Positions 25,484-35,262 of a stretch of DNA of 64,000 nucleotides are shown here, piece by piece (the stretch's first letter is position 1; each line of letters opens with the position of its first letter). This DNA comes from Thermodesulfobacterium sp. TA1. GTDB taxonomy: Bacteria; Desulfobacterota; Thermodesulfobacteria; Thermodesulfobacteriales; Thermodesulfobacteriaceae. The DNA lies in contig NZ_CP043908.1 of the NCBI RefSeq assembly GCF_008630935.1, positions 682,001 to 746,000 on the forward strand, given 5' to 3'. Under the pieces are notes generated by a model that ran no database searches, had not been told where the DNA came from, and worked only from the letters and a program-made list of their open reading frames with translations. Position numbers and translations under genes: made by a program.

Positions 25484-27457
25484 ATGAAAAATTTAAAAAA
25501 TTTTTTAAACAATTTAAGTCTAAGCACCAAGTTTACCCTTTATCTTTTGTGCGTTATTTCCCTTTTTTGTTTCCTTTTTTCAACCCTTCTTTATTATTTT
25601 TTAAAAAATAAGATGCTGGAAGAAGCAAGAAGAGAATCTGAGATATTGATTACTCAAATAGACGCTTTGGGAGATTATGTAAAAGAAGAACTAAGACCTT
25701 CTCTTTTTAAGTTTTTTAAAGAAGTGAATTTAAAAGAAGATTTTATCTTGGAGGCTATGTCTACCACCCATATAAGGACTAAAGTAATGCAAAGGTTTAA
25801 AGCCAAATTTAATGACTATGAATATAAAAGGGTTTCGTTAAAACCAATAAACCCTAACCACCTCCCCAATGAGCTCGAAAGAAAACTTTTAGCCATTTTT
25901 AATCAAGATAAAAATCTTAAACGTTGGGAAAATATAATAGAAATAAATAAAGAAAAATATTTAGTGGTTGTAAAACCTATTATAACGGAAAAAGAATGTC
26001 TTATATGTCATGGTAGGGTAAAAGATGCACCAAAAAACCTTCTTAAAATCTATCCGAGAAAAGAGGATTTTAATTGGAAACCAGGAGATTTGATGGGATT
26101 AGAGGCTGTCTATATACCGCTAAAAACTTGGTTATGGGAAATAAAACATATCGCCCTAACTACGTTTATTTCTGGTATGTTAACCATCATCTTATTGTTA
26201 GTCACGATAGAAGGGGTTTTTTGGGCTATTGTAGGCAAACCTATTAAAAGGCTTACCATCCATTTTAGAGACATTATCTCTGGAAAGGCTCCTTTAAATC
26301 AGAAGATAGAAGTAGAAAGAAAAGACGAAATAGGGGAGCTTCTTCAGTCTTTTAATCAATTGGCTAATCATCTTTTTGAAGCTCAAGAAGCTATAAAAAC
26401 GTATGCTCAAACCTTGCAAACCATCTTTAATCATATAACCGACCCATTAGCATTAGTTAACCTAAACTGTACTATAGAGGTTAGCAATAAAGCCTATCAG
26501 GAATGGATAAATCAGAAAAAGGGACCGGTTTTCAACATGGAATGTAATCCTCTGCAATCAGACGAGATCAGACCTTGCCTTGTAGCTTTATTAAAAAAAG
26601 TAATGGAGACCAAACAGCCGGTTTCAGAACATCTTAGCTCGCCTGAAGGAGGGTATTATTATACTCATCTTTATCCAGTTTTTGATGAAAAAGGTAAAGT
26701 GGTAAAGGTGGTTCATTATGTTGAAGATGTAACCGAAAAGAAGAAAATAGAAGAACAAATGGCCATTACCGAAAAATTGGCTGCTATCGGACAGCTTGCC
26801 GCAGGAATAGCCCATGAAATAAACAACCCTTTAGGAGGTATTATTTTATGCGTAAACAATCTTTTTAAAACTTCTATGGATGAACAAACGAGAAATCAAC
26901 ATATAGAACTTATCAATCAGGGATTGTCTCGTATTCAAAATATCCTTAAAGTCCTACTTGATTTTTCCAAAAAAACTGAGTTAGAACTTAAGGCTTGCGA
27001 GGTTAAAAACTTAATAGAAAATGTTTTGAAACTCATTAGCTATTATCTAAAAGAAAAAAGTATAAAATTAATCTTAGAGTTGGAAGAAAATTTAAAGCCG
27101 GTTTATTTAGATGCAAATAAAATCGAACAGGTTTTACTTAATCTTTTGTTAAATGCGATAGACGCTATGGAACATTCTGGGACCAAGATTTTAACCGTAA
27201 GGGCTTACATGAAAGAAAATAAAATGATCTTTGAGGTTTCAGATACAGGAACAGGAATACCAGACCATATAGCCAAAAAGATTTTTGAGCCATTTTTTAC
27301 TACTAAACCTTTAGGTAAAGGGACAGGCCTTGGACTTTTCATTTCTAAGTCTATAGTTGAGCAACACGGAGGTAAAATTTGGTTTTATACCTCAGAAAAA
27401 GGAACTACTTTTGTGGTAGAACTACCTTTAGAAAAGGAAAAGGTATATGAAGGGTAG
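25484..27457 (+). CDS. Membrane sensor histidine kinase with heme-motif sensor domain
   Basis: A 657-residue kinase. Membrane segments at about 16-38 and 225-250 enclose a periplasmic domain with CLICHGR, a CxxCH c-type heme motif in a DUF3365-like (Tll0287-like) context. HAMP, a PAS-like domain (about 305-420), HisKA ([14 protein letters not shown]) and an ATPase domain ([19 protein letters not shown]) follow. The sensor is therefore probably redox- or gas-responsive; heme attachment is inferred. It overlaps the regulator gene by 11 bases. The downstream sigma-54 promoter and transporter are the likely targets. A chemoreceptor at 47433-49391 has a similar sensor domain. Confidence 0.9.
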
Positions 27458-28808
27458 AATTTTAATAGTTGACGACGAGCCAATTATTTTATTTGGACTT
27501 TCTCACTATTTAAAAGACCAAGGTTTTGAAGTAGAAACCTGTGAAACAGGCACAGAGGTTCTAAAAAAGTTAGAAGCACAAAGGTTTGACCTTTGTATTG
27601 TTGATCTCAAGCTTCCAGATATAGATGGCCTTACGTTGTTAAGAAAAATAAAAACACAAGACCAACAAGTAGGGGTAATAATGATTACCGCTTTTGCTGA
27701 AATTAAAAGTGCGGTGCAGGCTATAAAAGAAGGGGCATTTGATTATTTGGCTAAACCTTTTACCAACGAAGAATTGATGATAGCAATAGAAAAATTTTTT
27801 GAGTTTAAAACTTTAAGAAAAGAGGTAGATGAGTTAAGGGAAAAATTAAAAGAAAAAGAAGCCTTTAAACAGATAGTGGGAGAAAGTAAGGCTATCAAAG
27901 ACATTTTAAACAAAATAGAACTTGTAGCCAAAACAGATGTTTCTGTGTTGATTTTAGGAGAAAGCGGAACAGGTAAAGAATTAATAGCTGATTGCATCCA
28001 AGCTTTAAGCTTAAGGGCAGATAAACCCTACCTTAAAATAAACTGTGCAGCCATTCCTGAGAATTTGTTTGAGGCAGAGCTTTTTGGTTACGAAAAAGGG
28101 GCGTTTACCGGTGCCTATAATTCTAAAAAAGGTAGATTAGAATTAGCTAACGGCGGAACGCTTTTTTTTGATGAAATCGCAGAACTTCCTCAGAACTTGC
28201 AAGCTAAACTGTTAAGGGTTTTAGAAGATCAAACCCTATATCGTTTAGGAAGCGAAAAACCTATAAAGATAGATGTAAGGTTTCTTTATGCTACCAGTAA
28301 AAATTTAAGACAACTGGTAAAAGAAGGGAAATTTAGGGAAGACCTTTATTATAGAATAAACGTTATGTCTATTGAAATACCTCCTCTTAGAGAAAGAAAA
28401 GAGGATATTCCTATTTTGGTAAACCACTTTTTAAAGAAATTCTCTGAAAAGTTTAAAAAGCCCATACCTCAGATTACCGAAGAAGCCTTTCAAGCTTTAA
28501 TGAATTATGATTATCCAGGCAACGTAAGAGAACTAAAACATGTTATAGAAAGGGCTGTCTTATTAGCTGTAGACGGCAAGATAACCCTTAAGCACTTACC
28601 TGAAGAAATAATCCATAGTTTTAAAACAGAGACCTCAGATTATAAACTTGCCAAAGAAGCATTAGAAAAAGAAATTATACTTCAAGCCTTAATAGAAACC
28701 AACTGGAACAAAACCGAGGCTGCCCAAAAGTTAGGGATTAGCCGTAAAACTTTATGGCAAAAACTTAAAAAGTTTGGACTTCTTCCAGTCCACACAGAAG
28801 AGGAATGA
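27447..28808 (+). CDS. NtrC-family sigma-54 response regulator
   Basis: A 453-residue activator paired with the kinase just upstream. The receiver domain has IVDDEPI and CIVDLKLPDIDG with the phosphorylated Asp near residue 51. The AAA+ domain has LGESGTGKELI, EKGAFTGAYN, GTLFFDEIAELP and [13 protein letters not shown] Fis-type DNA-binding end reads NKTEAAQKLGISRKTLWQKL. All functional motifs are intact. It most likely activates the sigma-54 promoter at 28962-28977 through the dyad at 28866-28881. This is inferred from position. Confidence 0.95.
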   Translation: MKGRILIVDDEPIILFGLSHYLKDQGFEVETCETGTEVLKKLEAQRFDLCIVDLKLPDIDGLTLLRKIKTQDQQVGVIMITAFAEIKSAVQAIKEGAFDYLAKPFTNEELMIAIEKFFEFKTLRKEVDELREKLKEKEAFKQIVGESKAIKDILNKIELVAKTDVSVLILGESGTGKELIADCIQALSLRADKPYLKINCAAIPENLFEAELFGYEKGAFTGAYNSKKGRLELANGGTLFFDEIAELPQNLQAKLLRVLEDQTLYRLGSEKPIKIDVRFLYATSKNLRQLVKEGKFREDLYYRINVMSIEIPPLRERKEDIPILVNHFLKKFSEKFKKPIPQITEEAFQALMNYDYPGNVRELKHVIERAVLLAVDGKITLKHLPEEIIHSFKTETSDYKLAKEALEKEIILQALIETNWNKTEAAQKLGISRKTLWQKLKKFGLLPVHTEEE

Positions 28809-28865
28809 ACCGTAGTAGTTTGTATAAGGATAACGTTACTTAAAAGAAACATAAGGTCTAAAAAC

Positions 28866-28881
28866 CGTTACCTTTAGGTAA
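28866..28881. promoter_or_regulatory. Dyad, candidate activator site for the yeiH-like promoter
   Basis: GTTACC and GGTAAC form a perfect 6-bp dyad around TTTA, about 80 bases before the -24 element, a usual place for an enhancer. A second palindrome, TAACGTTA, lies at 28831-28838. Both fit binding by the dimeric regulator encoded just upstream, but no binding data are available. Confidence 0.45.
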
Positions 28882-28961
28882 CAGTAAAAATTTCTTAAAA
28901 AATCCATTCTTAAAACCTTAGGTTTTTTCAAGTTTTTTAAAAAGAATAAAAAAATAAAAAT

Positions 28962-28977
28962 AGGCATGTTTTTTGTT
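28962..28977 (+). promoter_or_regulatory. Sigma-54 promoter before the YeiH-family gene
   Basis: AGGCATGTTTTTTGTT has GG and G(T) at the -24/-12 spacing (GG-N10-GT), one base off the usual GG-N10-GC. It lies about 125 bases before the ATG at 29102 and next to a sigma-54 regulator gene, which raises its likelihood. Confidence 0.5.
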
Positions 28978-29101
28978 ATTTTTGCCTAGGTAAAACTAAA
29001 ATCTGGAACAAGGGGGTGAGATAATGAAAAAAGGTTGAGGTGGTTAAAAGTAAAGTTTAGGATTTTTAAGGTTTAAAATTTAAAAGAAAGGAGGAGGTCG
29101 T

Positions 29102-30718
29102 ATGGTAGAGGAGAAGAAAAAAGGTTTGGTTAATGAAGATTGGTTAGCCTTTTATTTAGCGATGGCCTTGATAATAATTTCTTTTTTAGCCTATGTAGGG
29201 ATAGACCCATTTGGTTGGACGGTAAAGACTTCAGAATGGATTTCTCTTGATAAAGCCATTGCCCCTCTTAGTAAGAAGGTAGGTATTTCTGGTGGGGTAT
29301 CTTTAATTTTAACCTGGCTTTTTTTAACTGTGTTTTTTGCTATTGGGGCTGCCTTTTTAGGGCTTAACGTAGGGAGGTTTATCGTTGGTTTCTTTTTTAT
29401 TTTTTGGTTAAGTTATATTTGTTGGTTGATAGGACATTATGCATATTTTGCGGCTACCGATCCTACTAAACATAACATCCCTTGGTCTTTAAAACTTACT
29501 GGAGAAGGTGGACTTATCTTTGCTCTAATCCTTGGTTTGATTATAGGTAACTTTTTTAGAGGGTTTGCTAATTTTATCAAAGAGGCTGTTTTACCAGAGT
29601 TTTACGTTAAGACAGGTATTGGTTTGATGGGTGCGGTTCTTGGTTTAAAATCAGCTCAAGCCTTTGGTCTTGCTTCAGCGGTTCTTTTCAGAGGACTTTG
29701 TGCTATAGTTGAGGCTTATCTTATTTATTGGGCTCTTGTTTATTGGTTGGCAAGAAAATATTTTAAGTTTAGTAAGGAGTGGGCTGCACCTTTAGCCTCA
29801 GGTATTTCTATCTGCGGTGTTTCTGCATCCATCGCCACCGGTGGTGCAATTAAGGCAAGGCCGGTTGTTCCGGTTATGGTTTCTTCTTTGGTGGTTATTT
29901 TTGCGGTGGTTGAATTACTTATCCTTCCTTTCTTAGCCCGTGAGTTTTTATGGCAGCAACCAATGGTTGCTGGTGCTTGGATGGGACTTGCGGTTAAAAC
30001 CGACGGGGCTGCTTTTGCCTCTGGTGCTATAGTAGATGCTTTGATAAGAGGTAAGGCTGAAGCCGTAGCAGGTATCAAATATGAACCTGGTTGGATTATG
30101 ATGGCTGCAGCTACTACCAAGTTGTTTATAGACATCTTTATCAGTATTTGGGCTTTTATTTTAGCTTATATCTGGTGTGCTCATATAGAATGTCAAGAAG
30201 GTCAAAGAGTTACCGCTAAAGAAATCTGGCATAGGTTTCCCAAGTTTGTTTTGGCTTATGCCCTTGGTTTCGTAATCTTTTTGATTATTTCTGCCCCTCA
30301 TGCTCCTAAGGTGGGAACGGTAGAACATCAGATTAAAGGGGTTCAAAAACAGATAGAAAAGCTTGAAAAACAAGCAGCTACAGCAGTTGATCCAGCTATT
30401 AAAGACCAGTTGGCTCAACAGATAGCTGCTAAAAAAGCTGAAATAGAAGAGTTAAAGGCCAGTATAAAGGATTCTAAGAACGTAGTTGATCAAACCAAAA
30501 CTGCTACCAATGGATTAAATAACTTAAGAACTTTTATGTTCCTCTTTACCTTTTTTACCATCGGTATCATTTCTGATTTTAGGAAACTTTGGGAAGAAGG
30601 TATCGGCCGTTTGGCTGTGGTGTACTTAGTATGTCTGTTTGGTTTTATCATCTGGATTGGACTTTTGATTTCTTACATCTTCTTCCATGGAGTAAAACCA
30701 CCTATAATAGGGCAGTAA
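29102..30718 (+). CDS. YeiH-family (UPF0324) transporter with coiled-coil insert
   Basis: A 538-residue inner-membrane protein with about 11-12 hydrophobic segments. The core KTGIGLMGAVLGLK, SGISICGVSASIATGGAI and GLAVKTDGAAFASGAI matches the YeiH/UPF0324 family, annotated as putative sulfate exporters. That function is little tested. Residues 405-470 form a charged coiled coil (KQIEKLEKQAATAVD...), which is unusual for the family and makes the protein longer than the usual 340 or so residues. An AAAGGAGGAGG site precedes the ATG. It is followed by a 56-residue membrane peptide in the same unit. In a sulfate reducer, transport of a sulfur oxyanion is attractive but unproven. Confidence 0.82.
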   Translation: MVEEKKKGLVNEDWLAFYLAMALIIISFLAYVGIDPFGWTVKTSEWISLDKAIAPLSKKVGISGGVSLILTWLFLTVFFAIGAAFLGLNVGRFIVGFFFIFWLSYICWLIGHYAYFAATDPTKHNIPWSLKLTGEGGLIFALILGLIIGNFFRGFANFIKEAVLPEFYVKTGIGLMGAVLGLKSAQAFGLASAVLFRGLCAIVEAYLIYWALVYWLARKYFKFSKEWAAPLASGISICGVSASIATGGAIKARPVVPVMVSSLVVIFAVVELLILPFLAREFLWQQPMVAGAWMGLAVKTDGAAFASGAIVDALIRGKAEAVAGIKYEPGWIMMAAATTKLFIDIFISIWAFILAYIWCAHIECQEGQRVTAKEIWHRFPKFVLAYALGFVIFLIISAPHAPKVGTVEHQIKGVQKQIEKLEKQAATAVDPAIKDQLAQQIAAKKAEIEELKASIKDSKNVVDQTKTATNGLNNLRTFMFLFTFFTIGIISDFRKLWEEGIGRLAVVYLVCLFGFIIWIGLLISYIFFHGVKPPIIGQ

Positions 30719-30751
30719 GTTTTATATAAAAATCTACCAAAGGAGGTAAAT

Positions 30752-30922
30752 ATGGCTGAAGAAAAAGAAGCAAAACTTATAGAAGAACTTCAAAAAATGA
30801 AATATGACCCCTGGTTGCCTATAGAAAGTAAACTGGTAAAATGGTCTGTAGGATTAGGAATAATTCTTTTGATTGTCTTGGTTTGGGTTAGTTATACCTT
30901 CTTTCCTGCTTCCCACGGATAA
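30752..30922 (+). CDS. Small single-pass membrane peptide downstream of the transporter
   Basis: A 56-residue frame with a strong AAAGGAGG site eight bases before the ATG. The first 30 residues are charged (MAEEKEAKLIEELQKMKYD) and one membrane helix follows (WSVGLGIILLIVLVWVSYTF). It starts 33 bases after the transporter stop and ends before a terminator, so the two share a transcript. It is likely an accessory subunit of the transporter; no family is recognised. Strong translation signals and a typical membrane-helix sequence make it a real gene. Confidence 0.75.
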   Translation: MAEEKEAKLIEELQKMKYDPWLPIESKLVKWSVGLGIILLIVLVWVSYTFFPASHG

Positions 30923-30949
30923 AAATCTCGTCTAACGATTAAATTTAAG

Positions 30950-30981
30950 CCCTGGGAGGTTATTGCCTCTCAGGGTTTTTT
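30950..30981. terminator. Terminator after the transporter unit
   Basis: A 10-bp stem, CCCTGGGAGG and CCTCTCAGGG with one G-T pair, is followed by six T. It lies between convergent genes and probably serves the plus-strand unit. Confidence 0.85.
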
Positions 30982-34548: not shown

Positions 34549-35262
34549 TTATTTTTTGTTCAAACTAAAACTTAAAAATTCAAAAATGTCCTTAGGATAG
34601 ATTTTTTTATTTTTAAAAATAACCAGCCTTTCTACCAAGTTTTGAAGTTCCCTTATGTTGGCGGGCCATGGGTAGTCTTTTAATATTTCTATGGTTAAAG
34701 GTTGAAAGAAGACCCTTTTTTGATATTTTTGGTTAAATATTTTTAAGAAATACGCTAAAAATTCTGGTATATCTTCTTTTCTTTCTCTTAGGGGTAAAAT
34801 TTGTAGACTATAGAAATAGGTCCTAAACACGTTTAAAGTTAAATTTTTAGCAGATGAAGAGGCTATGAACTTTAGCTGAGATTGAGATAAAACGATTTTG
34901 ATAAAAGTTTCTAAGAATTCTTCAGACAGTCTATCTATATGATTTACAAAAAGGGTCCCTTTTTGGTTTTGAAGTAGATATATTTCTTTGAAAATTTCCT
35001 CTTTACAAAAAGAGGAGGCAAGACAATCTAAATAAAAAAATGTATGTTCTTTGTTAAACAAAAAATGAGCTTTTTTAGCTATAAAAGATTTCCCTACTCC
35101 GCTTTCTCCCCCTAAGAGTATAGGTATTTTAGAGTTATATAGCTTTTCTAATACAGGTAATAAAGTTTTTAGAGATGTAAAATCTATAAACTCCTTAGGG
35201 TTAATCTCGATAGATTTAATTTTAAAAAGCCCCTGAAGAAGGGGCTTTTTAAAATTTTTCAT
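34549..35262 (-). CDS. Degenerate sigma-54-activator-like AAA+ protein
   Basis: A 237-residue AAA+ domain related to NtrC-type activators but stripped down. Walker A (LGGESGVGKSFIAKK) is intact. The GAFTGA loop that contacts sigma-54 is missing. The Walker B position reads TLFVNHIDRL instead of LFLDEIG, so both acidic residues are gone. The arginine region is FRTYFYSLQILPLRERKEDI. WPANIRELQNLVERLV (sensor II) is kept. There is no receiver domain and no helix-turn-helix. It may bind but not hydrolyse ATP. It starts two bases after the glnA stop, and its first codons form a terminator. It may be a modulator of the sigma-54 network or a decaying gene. Confidence 0.75.
   Translation of the reverse strand: MKNFKKPLLQGLFKIKSIEINPKEFIDFTSLKTLLPVLEKLYNSKIPILLGGESGVGKSFIAKKAHFLFNKEHTFFYLDCLASSFCKEEIFKEIYLLQNQKGTLFVNHIDRLSEEFLETFIKIVLSQSQLKFIASSSAKNLTLNVFRTYFYSLQILPLRERKEDIPEFLAYFLKIFNQKYQKRVFFQPLTIEILKDYPWPANIRELQNLVERLVIFKNKKIYPKDIFEFLSFSLNKK
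35224..35250 (-). terminator. glnA terminator inside the 5' end of the next gene
   Basis: AAAAAGCCCC and GGGGCTTTTT form a 10-bp stem around TTCTTCA, an excellent rho-independent terminator on the minus strand. It lies 15 bases after the glnA stop and inside the first codons of the AAA+ gene (residues about 5-13). Expression of that gene must therefore depend on readthrough, or translation must disrupt the hairpin. Confidence 0.85.

Follow-up and report, generated by a model that had tools for sequence, protein, structure and literature searches.

A conserved pair of a type-A PSE/YeiH-like transporter and a small membrane peptide, encoded with a putative heme-c sensor kinase and a sigma-54 regulator in Thermodesulfobacterium sp. 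TA1

The window analysed here, a stretch of 64,000 nucleotides from the complete 1.83-Mb genome of Thermodesulfobacterium sp. TA1, carries at positions 25484–30922 a unit of four genes in the same direction, coding for a sensor histidine kinase, a sigma-54 response regulator, a long PSE/YeiH-like transporter and a 56-aa membrane peptide. The pairing of this peptide family with its transporter is near-obligate and clade-specific, and gene neighbourhood and phylogeny strongly support the proposal, made in a first-pass annotation of the sequence, that the peptide is a dedicated small subunit of the type-A transporter. For the unit as a whole we propose inducible export of a sulfur oxyanion, most likely sulfite, under a heme-c kinase, an explanation to which we would give an even chance. 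All the parts that the annotation had listed (kinase, regulator, dyad, promoter element, transporter, peptide and terminator) were found in the sequence, and its view of the genes as one unit withstood the comparison of gene order, which is conserved in related genomes.

The peptide gene (30752–30922, + strand) is followed by a strong hairpin with a 14-bp stem and a T tail, an intrinsic terminator (30947–30978, + strand). Its product has a conserved core, EPLLPxEKKLIxWSLGLG, then a single membrane helix. The window peptide matched no Pfam or NCBIfam family, comparison of 25 members of this unnamed family with Pfam/NCBIfam gave nothing beyond zinc-ribbon or single weak matches, and no PDB chain matched the peptide; as far as the open-access literature searched goes, the family has not been described before. 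A profile built from nine peptides detected it beside the transporter in 73 of the 80 named homologous loci, which are the top 80 out of more than 572; three more copies lie in long open frames. The other four loci are cut off by the end of a contig, so 76 are testable, and a peptide homologue adjoins the transporter in every one of these (76/76), in many phyla and in two archaea. Depending on the locus the peptide gene is upstream or downstream of the transporter gene, and the pair stays together. Among 197 genomes of the phylum, 27 encode a high-scoring type-A transporter, 26 of them with the peptide; every peptide match at E below 1e-10 came from a genome with a high-scoring transporter, and no strong stray copy was found away from a transporter. 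The two genes are adjacent by coordinates throughout this set, except in G105, where the peptide is found at contig edges, adjoining the tail end of a transporter frame. The profile matches beside transporters, the conserved core and the lack of strong strays led us to reject a chance open reading frame. One copy, from Archaeoglobus (L078:8433–8678), carries an N-terminal zinc-ribbon (CPNC...CAKC).

Phylogeny points in the same direction. All peptide-bearing transporters group in one clade (81 tips; support 0.89), and a sister clade (type B; support 0.98) stands separate from it. In the Desulfovibrionaceae of the sister clade, nine of ten members have downstream of them a gene for a different single-helix protein, unrelated to the peptide (L141–L149), of approximately 85–110 aa, with a YYTDVEI motif and without a Pfam family. 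The peptide could instead be a small membrane protein in its own right, only co-transcribed with the transporter, and the fact that no natural fusion of the two was found among the homologous loci would agree with this. We consider it improbable, given the adjacency in 76 of 76 loci of bacteria and archaea, at times with the peptide upstream, the absence of strong stray copies, the restriction of the peptide to one transporter clade and the different partner that the sister clade has of its own. A physical complex of the type-A transporter and the peptide is what we infer from this pattern.

The transporter (538 aa; 29102–30718, + strand) belongs to PF03601 (PSE/YeiH), with 77.7 bits against a gathering cut-off of 24.5 over residues 136–397, and falls outside YeiH proper, TIGR00698, with 45.9 bits against a cut-off of 232.6. 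No solved structural homologue was found by sequence. An AlphaFold2 model built with 69 sequences (pLDDT 89.3, pTM 0.85) gave a VIA-align ranking led by structures of the CPA/AT type (PIN8, NhaP1, SbtA, KefC, NhaA and ASBT; Z 12–15), the top matches being PIN8 (Z 14.6), NhaP1 (13.8) and SbtA (13.7). The modelled fold is thus likely to be CPA/AT-like; this result is supportive and not conclusive, because helical bundles can reach Z values of this order through arrangement alone and Foldseek by itself gave no match to the model with E below 0.001. Since the structural matches span residues ~88–533, the last two helices would be part of the fold and the coiled-coil hairpin (~401–454; model helices 401–427 and 431–454) inserted before them. 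The coiled coil described in the first-pass annotation as an addition is therefore present, not at the end of the protein, and as an optional insertion inside the fold that occurs in about 15 of 69 homologues. A further insert of ~45 residues, resembling a small beta domain, is seen after the first helix, near residue 60 (GEITKIDGQKVTLKKADGKE...), in about 11 of 69 transporters (L048–L058, L063, L065). In one locus (L066:4117–6276) a short, 369-aa transporter of the same family, as judged by sequence, stands beside the long one, flanked by a Usp gene and by a gene for a membrane protein of 151 aa that contains a lipoyl-like sequence.

The kinase (657 aa; 25484–27457, + strand) is composed of a transmembrane segment, a periplasmic Tll0287/DUF3365 domain (heme-c Cache), a second transmembrane segment, HAMP, PAS_4, HisKA and HATPase. 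Residues 42–212 match the Tll0287-like domain with an E value of 2.6e-36; the PF11845 (sCache_heme) profile scores 125.7 bits against a cut-off of 24.1, and together with this profile match the domain has the expected CxxCH. This motif, CLICH (Cys172–His176), where heme would be attached, aligns with a CxxCH in all linked kinases, and in an alignment of 19 of them CxxCH and EAMST(S/T) are both kept. According to a preprint (PMC12889525), an sCache_heme domain that forms part of a signalling protein bound NO with a slow off-rate and did not hold O2, and stand-alone domains acted like redox proteins; the parts consulted name no target operon of this kind for sCache_heme kinases. The control by redox state or gas that the annotation had suggested is plausible because of this binding of NO, and not of O2, by the fused domain. 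NO is the best-supported candidate ligand of the kinase heme, and we put it forward as a hypothesis; no NO or nitrite experiment on the kinase–transporter module was found in the open-access literature searched. That the heme senses redox state or sulfur ligands such as sulfide and sulfite, and not NO, is a serious contender a little short of even: the physiology of the hosts is rich in sulfur and the stand-alone domains described in the preprint behave like redox proteins, but the signalling-type domain assayed so far binds NO tightly (PMC12889525).

The kinase gene is overlapped by that of an NtrC/AtoC-type regulator (453 aa; 27447–28808, + strand), which has a receiver, a sigma-54 AAA+ domain with GAFTGA and a Fis-type HTH. 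As sigma-54 (rpoN) is encoded in the genome, everything expected of an enhancer-binding regulator (AAA+ with GAFTGA, HTH, RpoN) is present. Downstream lies the dyad GTTACCTTTAGGTAAC (28867–28882), for which chance would give 0.2 sites per window at two mismatches and which is found only once in the 1.83-Mb genome with up to one mismatch allowed. It occupies the corresponding place in five relatives (G013, G007, G001, G024 and G018), the last two of which belong to another genus and have it between the transporter and a divergent pair of genes for a TAT Fe-S protein and a cytochrome b. The dyad is the probable binding site of the regulator, approximately 115 bp upstream of the predicted transcription start (~28988). 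No catalytic subunit was seen with the divergent Fe-S protein of G024 and G018. Elsewhere in the window, at 34549–35262, an NtrC-like AAA+ fragment of 237 aa without GAFTGA or HTH has glnA on one side and split glutamate synthase genes on the other, and is conserved in G007 with 58% identity.

A sigma-54 promoter should contain a TGGCACNNNNNTTGCW-like element with GG-N10-GC. The predicted −24/−12 element AGGCATGTTTTTTGTT (28962–28977, + strand) scores 17.5 of 22.5, with GT replacing GC at −12; weak when taken alone, it is conserved in relatives, and its GG-N10-G core is invariant across six aligned relatives. In the named homologous loci, kinase-linked members, a set fixed before scoring, have a mean sigma-54 score of 19.1 and unlinked ones of 16.2 (of 22.5; p = 3.7e-5). 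The element is near-perfect in kinase-linked homologues, several of which match TGGCACN5TTGCW, and homologues reach 21.5. The predicted 5′ leader contains a mini-ORF, ATGAAAAAAGGTTGA (29024–29038, + strand; MKKG stop), with a strong Shine-Dalgarno sequence. Counterparts of four to five codons, reading MPGKG, MRGKG or MLGKG before a TGA stop, are present with a strong Shine-Dalgarno sequence in the leaders of G013, G007, G001, G024, G018, G014 and G022, and the distance to the transporter start is ~60–80 nt. The mini-ORF was rejected as a general leader, since it is found once in the genome and is confined to this bacterial family.

The order kinase–regulator–transporter–peptide is kept in the genus (G013, G007 and G001). 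In G024, G018 and G014, kinase and regulator genes are close to the transporter–peptide pair but separated from it by Fe-S/cytochrome b or Fe-S genes, and in another family (G032/G034) the order is kinase, regulator, peptide, an 84-aa product and transporter. The four genes are likewise grouped in further families of the order, in other Deltaproteobacteria, in Desulfovibrionaceae and in Nitrospirota. A heme-c kinase, in most cases with a sigma-54 regulator, is near the transporter in 13 of the 80 named loci, a set that, being limited to these top-ranking loci, favours close relatives and in which many flanks are short and open reading frames were called mechanically; these 13 come from Deltaproteobacteria, Humidesulfovibrio and one Nitrospirota bin. 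The best match among the 80 is a Caldimicrobium bin. In Desulfovibrionaceae, 9 of 20 transporter loci have a heme-c sensor within 1.5-kb flanks. Across all transporter homologues the kinase is nearby in a minority, and beyond the kinase system no wider neighbour is dominant in the homologous loci. Chance adjacency of kinase and transporter was rejected because the genome encodes one PF11845 protein, this kinase, and the Poisson probabilities are small (~1e-4 for the named loci, 3e-11 for Desulfovibrionaceae) even at ten such sensors per genome, a generous guess of ours. In three loci (L034:8276–9914, L035:10535–12221 and L044:2187–2504) a gene for an HmcB/HybA-like Fe-S protein separates the kinase system from the transporter, accompanied in L034 and L035 by that for an FDH-gamma-like cytochrome b.

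Sulfonate-cleaving enzymes of the TauD, SsuD and NtaA/DmoA kind release sulfite in the cytoplasm. Genes of this kind neighbour the transporter–peptide pair in Alpha- and Betaproteobacteria, coding for a TauD-like protein (L086), SsuD (L120) and an NtaA/DmoA monooxygenase (L111), and in L107 the neighbours are an SsuA-like protein and an NtaA/DmoA monooxygenase. Because of these neighbours and of published work on YeiH, the cargo would be a sulfur oxyanion, most likely sulfite, with direction and specificity presumed. YeiH of Salmonella confers sulfite resistance (PMC12880088), which makes the earlier remark that YeiH proteins have no firmly established substrate partly out of date, and YeiH has been proposed as the sulfite exporter of Hyphomicrobium (PMC12423496, PMC11582611); a survey of sulfate transporters of sulfate reducers does not mention it (PMC5840216). 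The annotation's idea of a sulfur-anion transporter is thus favoured by gene context and by the literature on relatives, and transport itself is presumed from both. Against sulfite, this literature covers shorter YeiH proteins, and the present transporter is far below the TIGR00698 cut-off.

The same module could also import a sulfur oxyanion, sulfite or one derived from thiosulfate, from the periplasm for respiration. In G023, genes for a PhsA-like molybdoenzyme, an Fe-S protein and a cytochrome b stand just upstream of the transporter and peptide; such enzymes could release sulfite outside the cytoplasm, and this PhsABC-like context is equally compatible with import or export. The TAT Fe-S protein and cytochrome b divergent across the same dyad in G024 and G018, and the symporters ASBT and SbtA among the CPA/AT folds, would also suit import. 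We nevertheless regard it as unlikely, since the neighbouring genes of aerobic Proteobacteria release sulfite inside the cytoplasm and the studied relative YeiH protects from sulfite (PMC12880088). A different anion, either a carboxylate tied to lactate or acetate metabolism or molybdate, handled in an energy-stress response, seems quite unlikely. It would fit the PSE genes of D. vulgaris, which share their regulation with lactate oxidation genes, and the benefit that disruption of the PSE gene brings under molybdate (PMC3333781, PMC4641369, PMC10102598), as well as the carboxylate carriers within the CPA superfamily (PMC8396727), but not the sulfonate-cleavage neighbour genes, found in unrelated phyla, or the sulfite phenotype of YeiH (PMC12880088), and the D. 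vulgaris genes may not be of type A.

Sulfite export under kinase control would then work as follows. The periplasmic heme-c Cache kinase would detect a heme ligand, with NO as candidate, or a redox change, and phosphorylate the regulator, which would bind the dyad and activate the −24/−12 promoter. The resulting mRNA would code for the type-A PSE transporter and for the single-pass peptide as its dedicated subunit, and the two would jointly expel sulfite (or sulfate) that builds up in the cytoplasm, for instance during a block of dissimilatory sulfite reductase. For sulfate reducers sulfite is both a central metabolite and a toxic one, and nitrite blocks sulfite reductase; NO or nitrite could in this way lead to sulfite accumulation while the kinase induces the exporter. 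To our knowledge, neither a route of sulfite export nor a signal of its excess has been established in sulfate reducers. The imperfect −12 motif of the window's own promoter and the minority linkage of the kinase count against this explanation. More generally, and with clear reservations, it is possible that PSE-type exporters are two-component systems, in two clades with unrelated single-helix subunits, and that in sulfate reducers a heme-c Cache/sigma-54 system links NO or redox stress to sulfite release. The gene pair is now defined across many phyla, archaea included, and here one sensor and one promoter lie upstream of it, so that partner, cargo and trigger become testable; its small unnamed protein could easily be missed by studies of YeiH/PSE transporters, and the newly described heme-carrying Cache sensors are offered target operons.

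With the YeiH/PF03601 family (TC 2.A.98; Salmonella YeiH, P. pantotrophus SuyZ, Hyphomicrobium YeiH) the transporter shares the PF03601 core and a sulfur-anion context. It differs in its length of 538 aa, extra N-terminal helices and last two helices after the inserted coiled coil, in its near-obligate small partner and TIGR00698 score below the cut-off, and in its proposed kinase/sigma-54 control, in place of control by LysR (YeiE). The peptide recalls AcrZ, CydX and CcmD, single-helix proteins of ~50 aa dedicated to one membrane complex, to which it has no known sequence relationship; its putative partner, unlike theirs, is a transporter of modelled CPA/AT type. The kinase resembles other sCache_heme (DUF3365/Tll0287) kinases, in which a periplasmic heme-c Cache with CxxCH is fused to HAMP and a histidine kinase.

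Closest to the whole unit is the D. vulgaris cluster DVU0539–DVU0545, with a kinase, a sigma-54 regulator, a PSE transporter, a 133-aa membrane protein and two Usp proteins (PMC3333781, PMC4641369, PMC10102598). There too a kinase and a sigma-54 regulator (DVU0540–DVU0539) are placed over a PSE transporter that has a small membrane protein encoded after it (DVU0542–DVU0545), but with two Usp genes and divergent transcription. In E. coli, the D. vulgaris regulator was shown to switch on the promoter of the PSE operon (PMC3333781), and the PSE operons are part of the sigma-54 regulome (PMC4641369). Genes of the cluster have molybdate phenotypes (PMC10102598), and this related cluster has been tied to these and to lactate genes, not to sulfite (PMC10102598, PMC3333781). 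Compared by description, the 133-aa protein is closer in length to the small partner of type-B transporters, and fits it better, than to the 56-aa peptide; Desulfovibrionaceae hold transporters of both types, A and B. The annotation knew of no description of such a set, which holds for the 56-aa subunit family and not for the arrangement; since a related cluster has been described in D. vulgaris, the present unit is a variant of it with a subunit family of its own, hitherto undescribed.
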